From Halarcobacter ebronensis (lineage in GTDB: Bacteria; Campylobacterota; Campylobacteria; Campylobacterales; Arcobacteraceae), in contig NZ_CP053836.1 in NCBI RefSeq assembly GCF_013201825.1, positions 310,001 through 374,000 of the forward strand: a stretch of DNA of 64,000 bases, in the 5' to 3' direction. Each line of letters starts with the position of its first letter. Position 1 is the first letter of the stretch. Shown here piece after piece: positions 12,588 to 20,634 of this stretch. Made by a program: the position numbers and the translations under genes. Below the pieces are notes generated by a model that made no database searches, had not been told where the DNA came from, and was given only the letters and a program-made list of their open reading frames with translations.

Positions 12588-13637
12588 ATGATGCAATTTG
12601 GTGATATGACGATAGTTTCTATAGATGATAATGAAAATAATCTTTATCTTATAGAAGCAATATGTTCAGAAATGAATCTATCTGTAATAAGTTTTTCAGA
12701 ATCATTGGAAGCTTTAATGTATGTATTGAAAAATAAAGTTGATTTGATAATTACAGATTATATGATGCCAACTTTAAATGGACTTGAGTTTATTAAAGAG
12801 TATAGAAACAGTAATAAAGTGGTACCTATTATTATGATAACAGCAGCTGGGGATGATGAAAGAATTCATAAAGAGGCTTTTGAGTTAGGAGCAAATGATT
12901 TTTTAAATAAACCAATAAATAGCGTAGTTTTTCAAGCAAGAGTATTAAATCTTTTGAGTAATTATAGAAATAGAATTTTGCTTGAAAATAAGGCAAAATT
13001 TTTAGAAGATGAGGTTCAAAAAGCAACAGAAAGATTAATAAATAGAGAGCATGAAACATTACAAATCTTAGGGAAAACAGCTGAATATAAAGATCCTGAA
13101 ACAGCATCTCATGTGGCAAGAGTCTCTAACTATAGTAAACTTTTGGCAAAAGAGTATGGACTTTCAGAAGAGGAACAAGAGATTATTTTTTATGCAGCAC
13201 CTTTTCATGACTTAGGTAAAGTTGGAATAGAAGATAAAATACTTTTAAAACCTGCAAAGTTAGATGAAGATGAGTTTGAGATTATGAAAACACATGCCCA
13301 AATAGGGTATGAAATTTTAAAAGATTCCCAAAGTGAATATTTAAAAGCTGGAGCTATTATTGCTTTGAATCACCATGAGAAATATAATGGTAAAGGGTAT
13401 CCAAAAGGGTTAAAAGGTGAAGATATACATATTTATGGGAGGATTGTTGCAATTGCTGATGTTTTTGATGCACTAACCTCTATAAGACCCTATAAAAGAG
13501 CTTGGAGCTTTAATGAAGCTGTTGAGTTTTTAAAAGAGGAGAAAGGTAGGCATTTTGATCCTAAAATGGTAGATATTTTTATAAATAATTTAGACAAAAT
13601 TGAAAATATTTACAACTCTTTTAAAGAGGATGTGTAA
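12588..13637 (+). CDS. Response regulator with HD-GYP cyclic-di-GMP phosphodiesterase output
   Basis: This 349-residue protein has an N-terminal receiver domain (residues 7-125) with phospho-acceptor D57 in IITDYMMPTLNG and lysine in FLNKPI. A short helical linker follows. The HD-GYP domain (about 155-345) shows metal ligands H207/D208 (FHDLGKVG), H236 (KTHA), H262/H263 (NHHE) and the GYP motif at 270-272. Such proteins hydrolyse c-di-GMP to pGpG/GMP, opposing the GGDEF cyclases at 8740 and 24398. No cognate kinase is adjacent. The orphan kinases at 20627 and 25871 are possible partners, which is inference only. Two ATGs are adjacent at the start; ATG 12588 gives the longest reading. Confidence 0.92.
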   Translation: MMQFGDMTIVSIDDNENNLYLIEAICSEMNLSVISFSESLEALMYVLKNKVDLIITDYMMPTLNGLEFIKEYRNSNKVVPIIMITAAGDDERIHKEAFELGANDFLNKPINSVVFQARVLNLLSNYRNRILLENKAKFLEDEVQKATERLINREHETLQILGKTAEYKDPETASHVARVSNYSKLLAKEYGLSEEEQEIIFYAAPFHDLGKVGIEDKILLKPAKLDEDEFEIMKTHAQIGYEILKDSQSEYLKAGAIIALNHHEKYNGKGYPKGLKGEDIHIYGRIVAIADVFDALTSIRPYKRAWSFNEAVEFLKEEKGRHFDPKMVDIFINNLDKIENIYNSFKEDV

Positions 13638-13693: not shown

Positions 13694-16600
13694 ATGAACA
13701 GTGAACTCTACGATAAGCTACAAAAGCACTTTATTGATGTTGAAAGAGATGTATTATCAAAACAAAATCCAATTACTGGACTACTTCCTGCAAGTACAGC
13801 AGTAAATGCACATGGAGACTACACTGATGCTTGGGTTAGAGATAATGTCTATAGTATTCTTTGTGTTTGGGGTTTAAGTTTAGCCTATAAAAAATATAAT
13901 CCTTCTGATTGTAAAACTTACTTATTATCTCAAAGTGTAGTTAAACTTATGCGTGGATTGCTTTTAGCTATGATGAGACAAAGAGATAAAGTTGAAAAGT
14001 TTAAATACACATCAAATCCTTTAGATGCACTTCATGCAAAGTATGGAACAAATACAGGGTTACCTGTTGTAGGCGATGATAAATGGGGACATCTTCAACT
14101 AGATGCTACCTCCTTATATGTTCTGATGTTAACACAAATGATTGCTTCAGGGTTAAATATTGTTTATACAATTGATGAAGTAAATTTTGTTCAAAATCTT
14201 GTTCACTATATTAGTAAAACCTACTGCATCCCAGATTTTGGAATATGGGAAAGAGGACACAAAATAAATACAGGAAGTACAGAGATTAACTGTAGTTCTG
14301 TTGGAATGGCAAAAGCAGCTTTAGAGGCAATAAACGGATTTAATCTTTTAGGAAATTATACAGGAAGTGAAGGAATAATTCATGTTATCTCAAGTGATAT
14401 TGCAAGATCAAAATTCACTTTAAGGGAGCTTTTACCACGGGAATCAAGCTCTAAAGAGAGCGATGGGGCACTTTTAAGTATTATAGGATATCCAGCTTAT
14501 GCTGTGGAAGATGTTGATTTAATAAAAAAGACAAAAAACAAGATACTAAAAAAACTTATGGGGAACTATGGGTGCAAAAGATTTTTATTAGATGGTCACC
14601 AAAGTTCTTTAGAAGATAGTTCAAGATTACATTATGAAAAGTCCGAACTAAGAGAGTTCAAAAATATTGAATCAGAGTGGCCTCTATTTTTTACATATCT
14701 ACTTTTAGACTCCCTTGTTCAAGGGGAAAAAGAGGAGGCAGTAGTTTGGCTTGAGAAACTTGAACCTCTATTTGTTGAAAAAGATGGTAAAAGACTTCTT
14801 CCAGAACTCTATTATGTGCCAAAAGAATTTATTGAAGAGGAGAAAAAAAATCCAGGAAGTCAAAAAAGAGTTCCAAATGAGAATATCCCTTTAGTATGGG
14901 CACAAAGTCTTTATTTGTTATCTAGTATGATTTTAGATGGCATTTTAGATGTAAATGATATTGATCCTGTTAACAGAAGAAAAAGAGTAGGACATAAGAG
15001 AAAAACCTATCCAATGGTTGCAATTCTTTCTGAAGATGAGTTTGTAAAACAGCAACTTCTAAATTATGGATTTAATACACAAACAATTGAGGAGTTAAAA
15101 CCTCTAAAAATTGCCCATGCTTCTGAATTATCTTCGGTACATAAATTATTAGGGAAAAATGAAAAATTGAGATTAACTGGTAAACCATCTTGGGTACCAC
15201 GTTCTATTACTACTTCAAGACTTCATATTTTAGCAGGTGAGTATGTAGTCTTTCTTCCATACTTTTTTAATCCAAAAGGTTTCTATTTTAGTAAAGACAA
15301 TATTCTTTTAGTTGAGCATTTTAGAGCTTCATTAAAATTTTTGTCAAGCTATTGGGACCAAGCAGGGCAGCCTATTCTTCCTTTTCTTGTTAAAGAGGAG
15401 ATGTTAGAAGTTGATCAAAAAGATGAAATTTTGAAACTTCTAAGTGAGTTACAAAGTGGTTATTCTGGCAATATAGAAGTCAAAGTCGGCTTTCTAGAAC
15501 AGCTTTTAACAACTGCAGGATTAGAAAGAATTGACAATCTTCACGGTTACAAAGTGGAGGATTTTAATTTTGATATTACAAATAGAACTTTTTATACTTC
15601 AAGTCTTTTAGAATGTGAAATATCAAAAACAATTAGACTAGAAGATATGCAAAAGTATGAGCAAGAAGAAGATAATAATTTAGTTGATAGCCTTATAAAA
15701 ACTATCTCTTTAAAAGAGAAAACCTATATTTTAGAGATTTTATATAGAAGACACAACTTAGAGTACGAGGTTCTAATTGAAGATAAAATGATATCTTTAG
15801 GTTCTTTAGCTCAACACTATTACGAGTATGCCACAGTGTGTCAAAATTGGGCAGTAATTAGAAAACTAAGTGATATTTTAAACTCATATGATGAAAGATT
15901 AGAAGATGCTGTCCTTGAGATAGTTATAAGGCAAAAAAGATTAGGTATAGGAAGAGCATATAGCGAAGGTGCTACTTTGTCAAAACCAGCTGATAATTAT
16001 ACTATTTTGGAGATGATTAAAAACTTCTCAGGAAAAAATTCGGCTGAAAGAGCATTAACCCAAGAACTTATTCTTCATTTAGGGCATTTAATAAGAGTTG
16101 AATCTCAACTTTTTGAGGGAATATTAACAATAAGAAGCTGGTATTTTGTACAGCTGTTAGTAAGTAATATTTGCAAAGATGAGCAAATACCTATTTCAAG
16201 TGGTTATGAAAGATTGATAAGTATGCCACCAAGTAGTATTTATAGTGATTTAAAAAAGATTTTATTTTCATTTTCATCTAAAGTTGAACAGATAAAAGAG
16301 CAAGAAAATCTTCTTGTTACTGGTATTACTAATTTAGATACAATTTTTACAAAACAGAAAATTGATGATAATTTAGATATTAAAGATTGGGCACAATATA
16401 GAAAAGATATTGGAATGATTTCTAAATTATCACATAGTTTTTATATTGGAATTTGGTATCTGTTACAGCAGTGTAAAGGTTTGGTTATTGGAGATAAATA
16501 TGACTCGAATAATAGAATAGGTTCTGAATCAACATTGGATACCACAGCAGGAGAGAGAAACTTTGAATTAAGGGTTGATTCTTTGCTTCAAAGTATTGAA

Positions 16601-16873
16601 GCTCCTGATTATAGACAGCTAAATTTAGAACTTTTACAAACATTGATAACAATCTTTGAAGAGAATCCTGATATTAGAGTTAATACAGATTTGCTACTTG
16701 ATGTTTTAATAGGTTATGCGGTAAAAATTGCGTGGCAAAAACTAAATGGTGAAGAGAATTATGATGAGCAAAAAGGACAAGCTTGGGAGTATTTTTATAA
16801 ACTTACACCCAAAGAGGCAAATGAGTATTTTATAGAATCTTTTATGTATTTGATAACTTTAGAGGAGAAATAA
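13694..16873 (+). CDS. Phosphorylase-kinase alpha/beta-like protein with GH15 glucoamylase-type domain
   Basis: This 1059-residue protein has no signal peptide and no membrane helices. The first 430 residues form an (alpha/alpha)6 GH15-type domain strikingly like the eukaryotic phosphorylase b kinase alpha/beta regulatory subunit. Visible motifs are NPITGLLPAS (25-34), DAWVRDNVYSI (45-55), VVKLMRGLL, KFKYTSNPLDALHAKYG, VVGDDKWGHLQLDATSL (125-141), IWERG with E186, NIESEWPLF (324-332) and PLVWAQSLYLLSSM. From memory, likeness to the animal protein continues into the region after 430, so it is not merely a shared glycosidase fold. Candidate catalytic acids are retained. It may hydrolyse or bind intracellular alpha-glucans. 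The coupled glucokinase gene (TAATG) supports release of glucose in the cytoplasm. A regulatory role on a phosphorylase is the alternative. Enzyme activity is unproven. Confidence 0.85.
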   Translation: MNSELYDKLQKHFIDVERDVLSKQNPITGLLPASTAVNAHGDYTDAWVRDNVYSILCVWGLSLAYKKYNPSDCKTYLLSQSVVKLMRGLLLAMMRQRDKVEKFKYTSNPLDALHAKYGTNTGLPVVGDDKWGHLQLDATSLYVLMLTQMIASGLNIVYTIDEVNFVQNLVHYISKTYCIPDFGIWERGHKINTGSTEINCSSVGMAKAALEAINGFNLLGNYTGSEGIIHVISSDIARSKFTLRELLPRESSSKESDGALLSIIGYPAYAVEDVDLIKKTKNKILKKLMGNYGCKRFLLDGHQSSLEDSSRLHYEKSELREFKNIESEWPLFFTYLLLDSLVQGEKEEAVVWLEKLEPLFVEKDGKRLLPELYYVPKEFIEEEKKNPGSQKRVPNENIPLVWAQSLYLLSSMILDGILDVNDIDPVNRRKRVGHKRKTYPMVAILSEDEFVKQQLLNYGFNTQTIEELKPLKIAHASELSSVHKLLGKNEKLRLTGKPSWVPRSITTSRLHILAGEYVVFLPYFFNPKGFYFSKDNILLVEHFRASLKFLSSYWDQAGQPILPFLVKEEMLEVDQKDEILKLLSELQSGYSGNIEVKVGFLEQLLTTAGLERIDNLHGYKVEDFNFDITNRTFYTSSLLECEISKTIRLEDMQKYEQEEDNNLVDSLIKTISLKEKTYILEILYRRHNLEYEVLIEDKMISLGSLAQHYYEYATVCQNWAVIRKLSDILNSYDERLEDAVLEIVIRQKRLGIGRAYSEGATLSKPADNYTILEMIKNFSGKNSAERALTQELILHLGHLIRVESQLFEGILTIRSWYFVQLLVSNICKDEQIPISSGYERLISMPPSSIYSDLKKILFSFSSKVEQIKEQENLLVTGITNLDTIFTKQKIDDNLDIKDWAQYRKDIGMISKLSHSFYIGIWYLLQQCKGLVIGDKYDSNNRIGSESTLDTTAGERNFELRVDSLLQSIEAPDYRQLNLELLQTLITIFEENPDIRVNTDLLLDVLIGYAVKIAWQKLNGEENYDEQKGQAWEYFYKLTPKEANEYFIESFMYLITLEEK

Positions 16874-17859
16874 TGATATTAGCTGGCGATATAGGTGGAA
16901 CCAAAACAAATTTAGCTCTATATAAAATAAAAGAGAACCAACCAATATTAGTCATAAAAGAGCAGTTTTCAAGCAAAAATTATGATAGCTTAATGCAAAT
17001 AATAAAAGAGTTTCATATAAAAAATGGTACTCCTTTAATCGAAGCAGTTTGCATAGGAATAGCAGGTCCAATTATAGAACAAAGATGTAAAACAACAAAC
17101 CTTCCTTGGCACATTAGTGCAAGTGAAATTATGGATTTTTTTAATACAAAAAAAGTAAGATTGTTAAATGATTTGGAAGCAACAGCTTATGGAATGTTAT
17201 ATTTAAAAGAAGAAGAGTTTGTTGAGTTAAATCCAAATGCAAAAAAACAAAAGGGTAATATTGCAGTAATTGCTGCTGGAACAGGCTTGGGCGAGGCAAT
17301 CTTATATTGGGATGGAGTCTCATATACTCCAATTGGAACAGAGGGTGGACATAGTGATTTTGCTCCTACAACTACAAAAGAGGATGAACTTCTTCTTTGG
17401 CTTAGAAAAAAATATCCTTCACATGTAAGTGTTGAGAGGGTAGCCTCAGGTATGGGAATTAGTAATATCTATGATTTTTTAGTAAGCAGTGGTTTTGCAA
17501 AAGAGCCTTCAAAAATTTTGAATATGAGTGAAGGAATGGACAAAGGTGCCATGATAAGCAAATGTGCCTTGGAAGATAAAGATATTTTGTGTCAAGAGAC
17601 ATTAAAACTCTTTATGGAAGTTTATGGTTCTGAAGCTGGTAACCTTGCACTAAAATCTTTCTCTTTGGGTGGAGTATTTATAGGTGGAGGAATAGCTCCC
17701 AAATTATTAACCATACTAAAAGAAGAGTATTTTTATAATAGATTTATTAGTAAAGGAAGATTTGAAAGTCTATTAAAAACAATCCCTCTAAAAGTCTCTT
17801 TAAATCAAGAAACAGCACTACTTGGTGCTGTAAGATTTGCCTTTGATAAACTAAGTTAA
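16873..17859 (+). CDS. glk: Glucokinase
   Basis: This 328-residue protein belongs to the bacterial Glk family (hexokinase/ASKHA fold). It has the N-terminal phosphate loop GDIGGTKTNLALY (5-17), GIAGPI, the sugar-binding LLNDLEATAYG, AAGTGLGEA and GTEGGHSDFAP. It phosphorylates free glucose with ATP in the cytoplasm. Its ATG shares one base with the stop of the phosphorylase-kinase-like gene, showing tight translational coupling and a joint pathway. That is notable because many Arcobacter relatives are described as not using sugars. The product could enter a pentose phosphate or Entner-Doudoroff route, or a storage cycle. None of those upper-pathway genes is in this window. Confidence 0.92.
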   Translation: MILAGDIGGTKTNLALYKIKENQPILVIKEQFSSKNYDSLMQIIKEFHIKNGTPLIEAVCIGIAGPIIEQRCKTTNLPWHISASEIMDFFNTKKVRLLNDLEATAYGMLYLKEEEFVELNPNAKKQKGNIAVIAAGTGLGEAILYWDGVSYTPIGTEGGHSDFAPTTTKEDELLLWLRKKYPSHVSVERVASGMGISNIYDFLVSSGFAKEPSKILNMSEGMDKGAMISKCALEDKDILCQETLKLFMEVYGSEAGNLALKSFSLGGVFIGGGIAPKLLTILKEEYFYNRFISKGRFESLLKTIPLKVSLNQETALLGAVRFAFDKLS

Positions 17860-17868
17860 GAGAGTATT

Positions 17869-20634
17869 TTGAACCAACTAATTACAAATAGTGAAAACAG
17901 CAATTTTTTTAATCACTTGACAAAACTTCTTTTAGAGTGCAAATCCTTTATTTTTAATGTGGCATTTATAAACTATTCAGGGACTCAACTACTTTTAAAC
18001 TCTTTAGAAGATTGCGAAAAAAGAGGAGTAAAAGGGAAAATTCTAAGCTCAACATATTTGGATTTTACTGATCCAAAGGCATTAGAAAAACTCTCTTTAT
18101 TTAAAAATATAGAGATAAAAATCTTTGATTCTTCAAAATGTGGTTTTCATCCAAAAGCATATATTTTTGAGTTTGAAGATGAATATAGAGTTCTTTTAGG
18201 TTCTTCAAATATTACTGCAAGTGCATTTAAAACTAATATTGAGTGGAATATAAAAATCTTCTCTAAAAAAGAAAAGGAGTTTACAAAGAGGATTCTTTTT
18301 GAATTTCAATCTTTGTGGGAAGAGGCTATTAGACTAAATAAAGAGTTTCTAGAAGAGTATAAAAATCATAAAGAAAAAGAGATAAAAAGAGAGTTTTTTT
18401 ATAGTTCTAAACCAAAAATAAATTTGATGCAAAAAAAGGCTTTAGATAGATTAACTTTTTTTAGAGAAAAGGGTGAAGATAAAGCTTTAGTTATAGCAGC
18501 AACAGGTACAGGAAAAACTTATCTTGCAGCTTTTGATGTAGCAACATTTAAACCTAAAAAAATGCTTTTTATTGTTCATAGAGAAAATATTCTAAAGAAG
18601 GCAAAAAGTACCTTTGAAACTATTTTAGAAGAGGCTAGTTGTGGATTATTAAGTGGTAACCATAAGCAGATAAATAGTAACTACTTATTTGCAACAATAC
18701 AATCTTTAAGTAGTTGTTATGAAAGTTTTAAAAAAGATGAGTTTGATTATATTATTTATGATGAAGCCCACCATATAAGCTCTCCTTCTTATACAAAAGT
18801 AAGAGAGTACTTTAAACCAAAATTTCAATTAGGACTTACTGCTACTCCAAATAGAATGGATAACTCTTCCATATATGAACTTTTTGATGATAATATTGCA
18901 GCAAATATTGGACTGAATGAAGCACTTAAAGAGGATTTAGTAAGCTCTTTTCACTACTACGGAATTGCAGATATTAAAGCAATAGATTACCAAAGTATAG
19001 ATATTGAAGATATCTCAAAACTTGCAAAACTATTGATGGTAAATAGAAGAGTAGAGTTTATTATTGAGAAGATGAACTTTTATGGAAACTCTGGAAAAAA
19101 GAGAAAAGTTTTGGGTTTTTGTGTCTCTAAAGAGCATGCTTTATATATGGCAGAAGAGTTCTCTAAAAGAGGAATAGAAGCTTTAAGTTTAACAAGCGAA
19201 GATAGTATAACAAAAAGGGAAGAGGTTTTAAAAAGAGTAGAAGATGATAAGGATTCTTTAGAAGTAGTATTTAGTGTTGATATCTTTAATGAAGGGGTTG
19301 ATATCCCTTCAATTAATACAATTTTGATGCTAAGACCCACAAACTCTTCTATAGTATTTATCCAACAATTAGGAAGAGGACTTAGAAAATATAAAGATAA
19401 AGAGTTTTTAACTGTAATTGATTTTATAGGTAACCACAAAAAAAGTTTTTTAATTGCATTGGCGCTTTGTGGAAATAGAGTTTTAGATAAAGAGAGTGTA
19501 AAGTTCTCTCTTTTGAATAATTTTGCAAATTTTCAAAATACACATATTGTAATTGATGAGATAACTAAAACAAGGGTTTTAGAGCAATTAGATAATGAGA
19601 ACCTAAGTAGTTTTAAATATCTAAAAGATAACTATATGAAGTTTAAATTGCAGCTAAATAATAAAATACCAATGCTTGAAGACTATTTTGAGTACAAAGA
19701 GTTAATTTCTGCTCTTCCTTTTATTGGTGAATCAAAATCTTATGTGGAGTTTGTAAATAGAGTTGAAGAGGATAAAAGTATAAAAACCATCTGCAAAGAT
19801 GAGGCTTTCTTGAAATTTAGTAGATTTTTAGACTCCATGTTGCCTTTACGAAGAGTATATGAGTTTGCAATATTAAAAAGAGTAATACAAAAGGGAAGTT
19901 GCAGTTTTGTTGAAGCAAGAAGTGTAGTTAATAAATATCTAGATAATGTTGAAGAGCAAACCATAAAACACTCTTTTTCTTATTTAAATCAAAACTTTTT
20001 TGATATTTCTCAAAAAGAGAGATTTTTAAAGGTGGTTACTTTATCTAAAGATAAACTAGAGTTAACAGATGAAGCCAAAGCTATTTTAAAAGATCAGATA
20101 AAAAGTGAGTTTCTTTTAAATAGTATAAATTATGGTTTGTTAGTTTATGAAGAGGAGTTTGGTTCAAAAGATTTTAAACTTCCATTTTTAAAACCATATG
20201 AAAAATACAATATGCTTGAAATTGCTCTTTTATCAAATTTTGACAAAATTCATAGCTCCTTTAGGGGAAGTGGTTTTTTAAAATACAAAGATGACTTTTT
20301 TCTTTTTATAACTTTGGAAAAAGATAAATACTCAAAAGCCTCAGCTTATGTAAATACTTTCTCTTCAAAAGATACTTTTACTTTTGTTAGCAAACCTCTT
20401 ATGTCTCAAGATAAAGGAGATGGTTATAGATTAATAGATAATAAAAAGCAAGGTGTAAATCTTCATATATTTGTTAGAAAATTTTCCCATGTTGATAAAA
20501 AAGTTCAAAAGTTTAGTTATTTAGGTTTAGCTGATTGTATTGAGTATAATGGAAATAAACCCATAAATACAATATTAAAGTTAAGAAAAGAGCTAAATGA
20601 TGAACTCTTTGAAGAGTTTACAAAGGTTATTTAA
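17869..20634 (+). CDS. PLD-family nuclease / superfamily 2 helicase fusion with DUF3427 C-terminus
   Basis: This 921-residue protein starts with TTG at 17869, ten bases after glk. Residues 1-165 form a phospholipase D-like (HKD) nuclease domain: H94-P-K, an aspartate eight residues after the lysine, then GSSNIT. That spacing resembles the COG3886-type nuclease variant. A DEAD/DEAH helicase core follows, with Walker A ATGTGKT (about 211-217), DEAH (about 297-300), TATPNRM and QQLGRGLRKY. The C-terminal 170 residues resemble DUF3427. It should move on or cut nucleic acid using ATP. Relatives are often found as single-gene accessory nuclease-helicases, and a role in defence or repair is inference. 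No methylase or other restriction gene is adjacent. Its end overlaps the convergent kinase by 8 bases. Confidence 0.85.
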   Translation: MNQLITNSENSNFFNHLTKLLLECKSFIFNVAFINYSGTQLLLNSLEDCEKRGVKGKILSSTYLDFTDPKALEKLSLFKNIEIKIFDSSKCGFHPKAYIFEFEDEYRVLLGSSNITASAFKTNIEWNIKIFSKKEKEFTKRILFEFQSLWEEAIRLNKEFLEEYKNHKEKEIKREFFYSSKPKINLMQKKALDRLTFFREKGEDKALVIAATGTGKTYLAAFDVATFKPKKMLFIVHRENILKKAKSTFETILEEASCGLLSGNHKQINSNYLFATIQSLSSCYESFKKDEFDYIIYDEAHHISSPSYTKVREYFKPKFQLGLTATPNRMDNSSIYELFDDNIAANIGLNEALKEDLVSSFHYYGIADIKAIDYQSIDIEDISKLAKLLMVNRRVEFIIEKMNFYGNSGKKRKVLGFCVSKEHALYMAEEFSKRGIEALSLTSEDSITKREEVLKRVEDDKDSLEVVFSVDIFNEGVDIPSINTILMLRPTNSSIVFIQQLGRGLRKYKDKEFLTVIDFIGNHKKSFLIALALCGNRVLDKESVKFSLLNNFANFQNTHIVIDEITKTRVLEQLDNENLSSFKYLKDNYMKFKLQLNNKIPMLEDYFEYKELISALPFIGESKSYVEFVNRVEEDKSIKTICKDEAFLKFSRFLDSMLPLRRVYEFAILKRVIQKGSCSFVEARSVVNKYLDNVEEQTIKHSFSYLNQNFFDISQKERFLKVVTLSKDKLELTDEAKAILKDQIKSEFLLNSINYGLLVYEEEFGSKDFKLPFLKPYEKYNMLEIALLSNFDKIHSSFRGSGFLKYKDDFFLFITLEKDKYSKASAYVNTFSSKDTFTFVSKPLMSQDKGDGYRLIDNKKQGVNLHIFVRKFSHVDKKVQKFSYLGLADCIEYNGNKPINTILKLRKELNDELFEEFTKVI

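Follow-up and report, generated by a model that had tools for sequence, protein, structure and literature searches.

The alpha and beta subunits of eukaryotic phosphorylase kinase (PhK), PHKA and PHKB, have been described as carrying GH15-like domains since Pallen 2003, as cited in PMC10978961 and PMC2639635. In the PhK structure paper, E185 and E371 of PHKA are the catalytic pair, and yet no activity of human alpha, which possesses both glutamates, was detected on maltose, isomaltose or glycogen; the human subunits moreover carry a C-terminal CaaX farnesylation motif (PMC10978961). Here we describe a bacterial gene pair encoding a PhK-like protein and a glucokinase. It is located at positions 13694 to 17859 of a 64,000-nucleotide stretch of the Halarcobacter ebronensis genome (assembly GCF_013201825.1, contig NZ_CP053836.1, positions 310,001 to 374,000), which is called the window in the following and to which all unlabelled coordinates refer. 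The pair probably represents a cytoplasmic, catalytically competent GH15 alpha-glucosidase of PhK alpha/beta architecture together with a glucokinase, both serving the breakdown of glycogen or dextrins.

For GH15 enzymes without PhK architecture, a similar role in glycogen breakdown has been proposed in archaea, where the excess glycogen of a GH15 mutant fits a catabolic function. The Sulfolobus glycogen mutants apart, the archaeal GH15 and GH57 hydrolases are secreted enzymes of starch use, and the excerpt of the archaeal review contains no mention of phosphorylase kinase (PMC11046441).

A full-length PhK homologue overlapping a glucokinase gene

The open reading frame at 13694..16873 (+ strand) encodes a protein of 1059 amino acids, consisting of a GH15 domain, a middle region and a KPBB_C domain. 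Pfam assigns GH15 (PF00723) to residues 17-814 with 256 bits (cut-off 22) and KPBB_C (PF19292), the phosphorylase b kinase C-terminal domain, to residues 829-1058 with 240 bits (cut-off 27), the latter domain extending over residues 829-1059 (16178..16870, + strand). The GH15-like catalytic domain D1 (residues 1-430; 13694..14983, + strand) is supported by invariance among 22 bacterial homologues and by its fold match to the GH15 enzyme 5z3e (VIA Z 22). A TreH1 match is weak (26 bits at a cut-off of 820). In a phmmer search against the PDB, the only two sequences with E up to 1 were human PHKA1 (655 bits, E 1.3e-195; stretches 16-609, 661-861 and 885-986) and PHKB (539 bits, E 1.5e-160; stretches 2-820 and 897-1011). 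A profile of the 22 bacterial homologues raised these scores to 990 and 825 bits, respectively, and retrieved no ordinary GH15 chain from the PDB at E 0.01. The protein is a full-length bacterial homologue of the eukaryotic PhK alpha/beta subunits, as had been proposed in a first reading of the sequence alone (the sequence-only reading), and the homology includes the C-terminal region.

The predicted structure leads to the same assignment. The AlphaFold2 (AF2) model has a pLDDT of 80 and a pTM of 0.80, and all eight PDB matches that Foldseek returned with E < 0.001 are PhK chains, 8z5r_A (E 8e-55, TM 0.71/0.75) being one of them. VIA-align, run on the 948 chains ranked highest by Foldseek, aligned 912 residues with 8z5r_A (Z 40.0) at a root-mean-square deviation (rmsd) of 13.2, which probably reflects domain orientation, and 773 residues (1-868) with 8jfl_A at an rmsd of 3.1 (Z 37.4), so that the D1-D5 fold is collinear over the full length. 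GH15 enzymes rank after the PhK chains, with Z 20-22 and residues 1-434 aligned. The (alpha/alpha)6-barrel of GH15 is recognized in the matches to 1lf6 and the 5z3 series (Z 20.3-22.2), of which the isomaltose glucohydrolase 5z3e is the nearest non-PhK fold (Z 22.2). The match of D1 to KfIG (5Z3A) and the bacterial glucoamylase 1LF6 comprises approximately 330 residues, whereas some 630 further residues of the window protein are shared with PhK and not with the GH15 glucohydrolases. The active-site geometry of the model was set aside, because the active-site loops have a pLDDT below 50.

No signal peptide was found on the basis of hydropathy alone: the highest-scoring 19-residue stretch starting within residues 1-50 reaches a mean Kyte-Doolittle value of only 0.95. 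This absence of a hydrophobic N-terminus supports a cytoplasmic location; the sequence-only reading, too, had noticed no signal peptide.

The second gene, glk (16873..17859, + strand), encodes a glucokinase of the PF02685/TIGR00749 type with 328 amino acids (PF02685: 336.7 bits, cut-off 22.1; TIGR00749: 275.9 bits, cut-off 225.45). Its start overlaps the last base of the PhK-like gene in the sequence TAATG at 16871-16875, as noticed in the sequence-only reading, and the letters of the junction are AGGAGAAATAATG. The AGGAG at 16863..16867 (+ strand) lies upstream of the glk start and is a likely ribosome-binding site of the Shine-Dalgarno type within the end of the PhK-like gene; glk is probably translationally coupled to the latter.

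With PHKA and PHKB the bacterial protein shares the length class, the domain order and KPBB_C, and with PHKA also both catalytic glutamates. There are also clear differences. The genome containing the window has a single PhK-like gene (one GH15 match) in place of the alpha/beta pair, this gene is coupled to glucokinase unlike PHKA and PHKB, and its product ends in YLITLEEK without a CaaX motif. Additional stretches of human alpha (approximately 617-696 and 990-1041, unaligned) have no counterpart in the window protein.

In the window, the pair is preceded by a response regulator gene (12588-13637; HD-GYP-like by eye) and followed by a helicase-like gene (17869-20634). The helicase-like gene recurs near the pair at loci L026, L032 and L033, and the response regulator adjoins the pair in L026 and lies two genes upstream in L033. 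This is shared synteny without a clear functional link.

Active site of the bacterial proteins and of human PhK

Invariance was counted in an alignment (A1) of 22 bacterial proteins, 14 from Campylobacterota and 8 from Pseudomonadota, the homologue from Synechococcus standing outside this set. Invariant are 138 of the 430 positions of D1, 11 of the 398 of the middle region and 14 of the 231 that belong to KPBB_C; D1 accordingly holds 138 of all 163 invariant positions, and the remainder of the protein contributes 25 in 629 residues.

All 22 proteins possess the general acid E186 (14249..14251, + strand; PHKA E185), the general base E371 (14804..14806, + strand; E371 in PHKA, but Lys in PHKB), Y43 (13820..13822, + strand), the Arg-Asp pair R49-D50 of subsite -1 (13838..13843, + strand), W47 and W185. 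The GH15 residue set of two catalytic glutamates and the Tyr, Arg and Asp of subsite -1 is complete in each of them, with Y43 being equated by alignment and spacing and not by coordinates. By motif and spacing, Y43 corresponds to Tyr337 of TtGA and to the residue of KfIG which we take to be Tyr48; the position is occupied by Gln in PHKA1 and by Asp in PHKB, and its tyrosine is kept in two ordinary GH15 sequences. In TtGA (Tyr337/Asp344) and AgGD (Tyr326/Asp333) this tyrosine forms a hydrogen bond with the general base and is followed by the Asp at +7, and in KfIG it is Asp56 that accompanies the counterpart (PMC12446779). The acid and base glutamates and the Tyr with an Asp at +7 are common to the GH15 glucohydrolases and the window protein, but the surroundings of the glutamates read WERG and ELY in the window protein and WEE and EQ in a GH15 sequence (L062). 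The active-site list of the sequence-only reading (D45, E186, E326 and E328) can be retained for E186 as the general acid. In place of E326 or E328, however, the base is E371, and D45 is kept in 20 of 22 proteins only, the key aspartate of subsite -1 being D50.

The human subunits depart from this pattern to a different extent. Among the 138 invariant positions of D1, 44 are changed in human beta, including E371K, R49Q and W47K, and 16 in human alpha. Three of the changes in alpha (H40, G41 and Y43) fall into the HGDY loop, which is six residues shorter in alpha and is kept in the bacterial proteins together with the other D1 residues in question; the further changes concern E250, H302, Q303, N395, N397, L400 and A403 as well as T35, M94, A259, G265, K295 and D422. 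Since human alpha has a Gln in register with Y43 but a Tyr two residues upstream, which could substitute, the loss of this tyrosine in alpha is only putative.

Distribution and genomic context

The PhK-like protein is not unique to H. ebronensis. KPBB_C was detected in 13 of 397 Campylobacterota genomes (that of the window included), belonging to 6 of 68 genera, in 8 of 398 Pseudomonadota genomes, two of which (G398 and G399) had been known before the survey, and in Synechococcus elongatus, out of 14 control genomes. A 14th protein from Campylobacterota was added from the contig collection (Arcobacter sp. SZUA-449; L015/L033). Each of the 22 fetched homologues has a length of 982-1118 residues. 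GH15 proteins of any kind are present in 15 of the 397 Campylobacterota genomes and are of the PhK type in 13 of these 15. In the plasmid collection, two E. coli records matched over 28% of the query (27% identity) and represent ordinary GH15 proteins; these records (NZ_CP134663.1 and NZ_OL790696.1, 4.9 and 4.8 Mb) are filed as plasmids but, judging from their size, look like chromosomes.

A few homologues deviate in length. The protein of SZUA-449 (L033:8416-11367) has a natural deletion of approximately 80 residues in the middle region, located between positions 626 and 710 of the window protein, which spares D1 and KPBB_C. The KPBB_C match in G766 (L045:5842-8928) passes through one TAA near its end, and the C-terminus may be shortened there. 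The 29-64 extra N-terminal residues of the homologues at L022, L023, L024 and L025 are probably an artefact of the mechanical rule for open reading frames, which placed the start codon too far upstream.

The coupling to glk, first noticed in the window, holds for most Campylobacterota loci: at 13 of the 14, the window included, the PhK-like gene is immediately followed by glk in the same orientation, with an overlap or a distance of at most 25 bases in 12 loci and of 125 bases in one. At the remaining locus (L030) no glk was found in the corresponding genome (G284), the assembly of which comprises 240 contigs. A glk match is present in 61 of the 397 Campylobacterota genomes. Two families (f2 and f3) account for 46 of them, none with KPBB_C; the other 15 comprise 13 strong matches and two weak ones (G129 and G378), which were not counted as strong. 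Of these 13 genomes with a strong match outside f2 and f3, 12 carry the PhK-like gene (the exception is G327) and, vice versa, 12 of the 13 Campylobacterota genomes with KPBB_C possess a strong glk. Adjacency to glk as a general rule for PhK-like genes was rejected, given that glk is absent from the Pseudomonadota loci and common in f2 and f3 without KPBB_C.

The sequence-only reading had connected the pair with an alpha-glucan route and suggested a search of the whole genome for glycogen synthase and phosphorylase. Both enzymes (GT5 and GT35) were found, and in one cluster; together with the gene neighbourhoods in other genomes described below, this makes the connection stronger than it appears from the window. 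This cluster is located at approximately 2.841-2.855 Mb (C1) of the H. ebronensis genome, which consists of one contig of 3.17 Mb, and contains, in this order, FBPase, a GH57 protein with BE_C, DUF4912, PGM, the GT35 phosphorylase, the GT5 protein GlgA, a GalT-like protein, another GH57, a fusion of a nucleotidyltransferase with PGM, and PFK, which is truncated where the fetched sequence ends. NiFe hydrogenase genes adjoin it. In G292, a further genome from the genus of H. ebronensis, the ten cluster genes recur (C29:114854-129316); there, these genes, hydrogenase genes (C29:131910-136643), the PhK-like gene (C29:137342-140527) and glk (C29:140542-141531) all lie within 27 kb. The hydrogenase genes are of the NAD-linked NiFe type (L049:31-4606 in the H. 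ebronensis genome; L032:1911-6643) and in G292 stand between the cluster and the PhK-like-glk pair, a position which suggests that glycogen is fermented in the dark with turnover of hydrogen.

Glycogen genes also stand near the PhK-like gene elsewhere, the gene order being GT35 (truncated at the end of the contig), PGK, PhK-like, glk and PGM in L021, GT35, PhK-like and glk in L031, and GlgB, GlgX, GH77 and PhK-like in L016 and L017 from Pseudomonadota. In L043 and L044, likewise from Pseudomonadota, GlgB and GlgX are next to the PhK-like gene. A GT5 glycogen synthase match is present in 13 of 13 Campylobacterota genomes with KPBB_C (all strong) and in 71 of the 384 others (60 strong), and within the genus of the window in three of three carriers of the PhK-like gene and in neither of two non-carriers. 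As a side observation, the PhK-like gene in L040 has downstream of it a gene for a glucuronyl-esterase-like protein that carries a CBM9 domain.

Proposed role, alternatives and implications

From the residue set and the genomic context we infer that the protein hydrolyses terminal alpha-glucosidic bonds, and its substrate likewise. The GH15 domain would cut terminal glucose from the stored alpha-glucan of the cell, or from short or branched dextrins that phosphorylase leaves behind, and the glucokinase would convert the freed glucose to glucose-6-phosphate for glycolysis. The D2-D5 part, KPBB_C included, may serve assembly or the docking to glycogen and not the control of a protein kinase.

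Several observations weigh against this assignment. Conservation of the glutamates alone proves nothing, since human alpha keeps both without detectable activity. In the AF2 model the stretches containing Y43 and E186 have a pLDDT below 50. The Fisher p of 8e-10 for the co-occurrence with GT5 (13/13 vs 71/384) treats the genomes as independent and is not corrected for kinship. No glycogen gene was found among the eight neighbours scanned at L040, L041, L042 and L045, and glk occurs in none of the eight fetched Pseudomonadota stretches. Finally, the residue following the general base is Leu372 in 22 of 22 proteins, whereas the inverting GH15 enzymes named in PMC12446779 have a Gln there. This last point is not decisive, because an ordinary E. 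coli GH15 protein has a Ser at this position; with Leu here and Ser there, inverting or retaining action is not readable from the sequence.

Among the alternatives, a non-catalytic glucan-binding scaffold or sensor, which like human alpha as assayed would lack activity and would tether glucokinase or enzymes of glycogen metabolism to the polymer, is unlikely but survives best. It would agree with the inactivity of human alpha on maltose, isomaltose and glycogen (PMC10978961) and with a large D2-D5 part that has no nameable catalytic role. However, the invariant residues cluster in D1, the bacterial proteins retain Y43, H40, G41, E250, H302, Q303, N395 and N397, which human alpha has lost, and a glucokinase requires free glucose. 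We regard it as rather improbable that the protein is a GH15 enzyme hydrolysing a different disaccharide, such as trehalose or isomaltose, which the cell would import or make itself, and that the glucokinase is its partner in this. GH15 does include trehalases and isomaltose glucohydrolases (PMC12446779), and the nearest non-PhK fold (5z3e) as well as the weak TreH1 match would fit, but the recurrent neighbours and co-occurring partners are glycogen genes, and no trehalose or import genes were found among those neighbours that were scanned. A retaining transglucosidase remodelling glucan branches in the manner of dextran dextrinase, which uses the same two glutamates and which, as its authors warn, cannot be told apart by sequence (PMC12446779), is very improbable despite the Leu in place of Gln after the base, as the coupling to glucokinase points to free glucose as the product.

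Within the proposed glycogen-degrading role, the identity of the debranching enzyme deserves attention. The H. ebronensis genome encodes a branching enzyme, the GH57 protein with BE_C, yet no recognised debranching enzyme: there is no match to GDE_C/GH133 or GH77, and the single GH13 match is sucrose-phosphorylase-like (236 bits at a cut-off of 334). This GH13 gene overlaps a GpgS-like (glucosyl-3-phosphoglycerate-synthase-like) gene (L065:676-3626, at approximately 2.42 Mb; 323 bits at a cut-off of 700), and the two are likely part of glucosylglycerate metabolism. The opening of the branched glucan must therefore fall to the PhK-like GH15 protein, to a GH57 or to some unrecognised factor. It is conceivable, though we put this forward only tentatively, that the PhK-like protein is the missing debranching glucosidase, cutting the alpha-1,6 glucose stubs after trimming by GT35 and a GH57 transferase. 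The animal PhK alpha and beta subunits would then be degenerate hydrolases of the debranching type turned into glycogen sensors, and alpha would be inactive because it lost the HGDY loop, with the Tyr that neighbours the general base, and not because of a loss of the glutamate pair. Removal of alpha-1,6 stubs yields free glucose, which would explain the nearly constant glucokinase partner, and the nearest non-PhK fold belongs to an isomaltose-acting GH15 enzyme. The other GH57 (L049:13473-15560) could be the debrancher instead.

The hope that the bacterial protein would illuminate the origin of the animal subunit was not borne out by the trees, in which eukaryotes were represented by two sequences and cyanobacteria by none. 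Without a root, the D1-D2 tree joins human alpha and beta, both on long branches, at 95/93 opposite all 22 bacterial sequences. When rooted on two ordinary GH15 proteins, alpha and beta group at 95/84 and the bacterial sequences form one clade with a support of only 27/0; without beta, the p-AU for a single bacterial clade is 0.517. Rooting the origin of the animal subunits was dropped for these reasons.

The combination of GH15 and KPBB_C is present in Pfam, and bacterial members are therefore implicitly catalogued already. Among the open-licence literature matches listed, no title or beginning of an abstract mentions a full-length homologue of PhK from bacteria or connects one with glucokinase and glycogen genes, and the listed matches on glycogen in Arcobacter and Epsilonproteobacteria contain nothing on the PhK-like/glk pair.

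The 2024 structure paper left open why PhK alpha, with an apparently intact glucoamylase site, shows no activity (PMC10978961). The bacterial homologues beside glycogen genes and glucokinase offer a tractable test protein for this question, with the 16 residues changed in human alpha as candidates, and suggest a kinship between the animal regulator and an enzyme of glycogen breakdown that is probably functional. In Campylobacterota, the PhK-like protein, for which enzyme activity is predicted, and glk appear to be part of a unit leading from glycogen to glucose-6-phosphate. To our knowledge, these bacteria are usually described as not using sugars; the pair would provide such a group with a route from stored glycogen via free glucose to glycolysis, possibly replacing the normal debranching enzyme.

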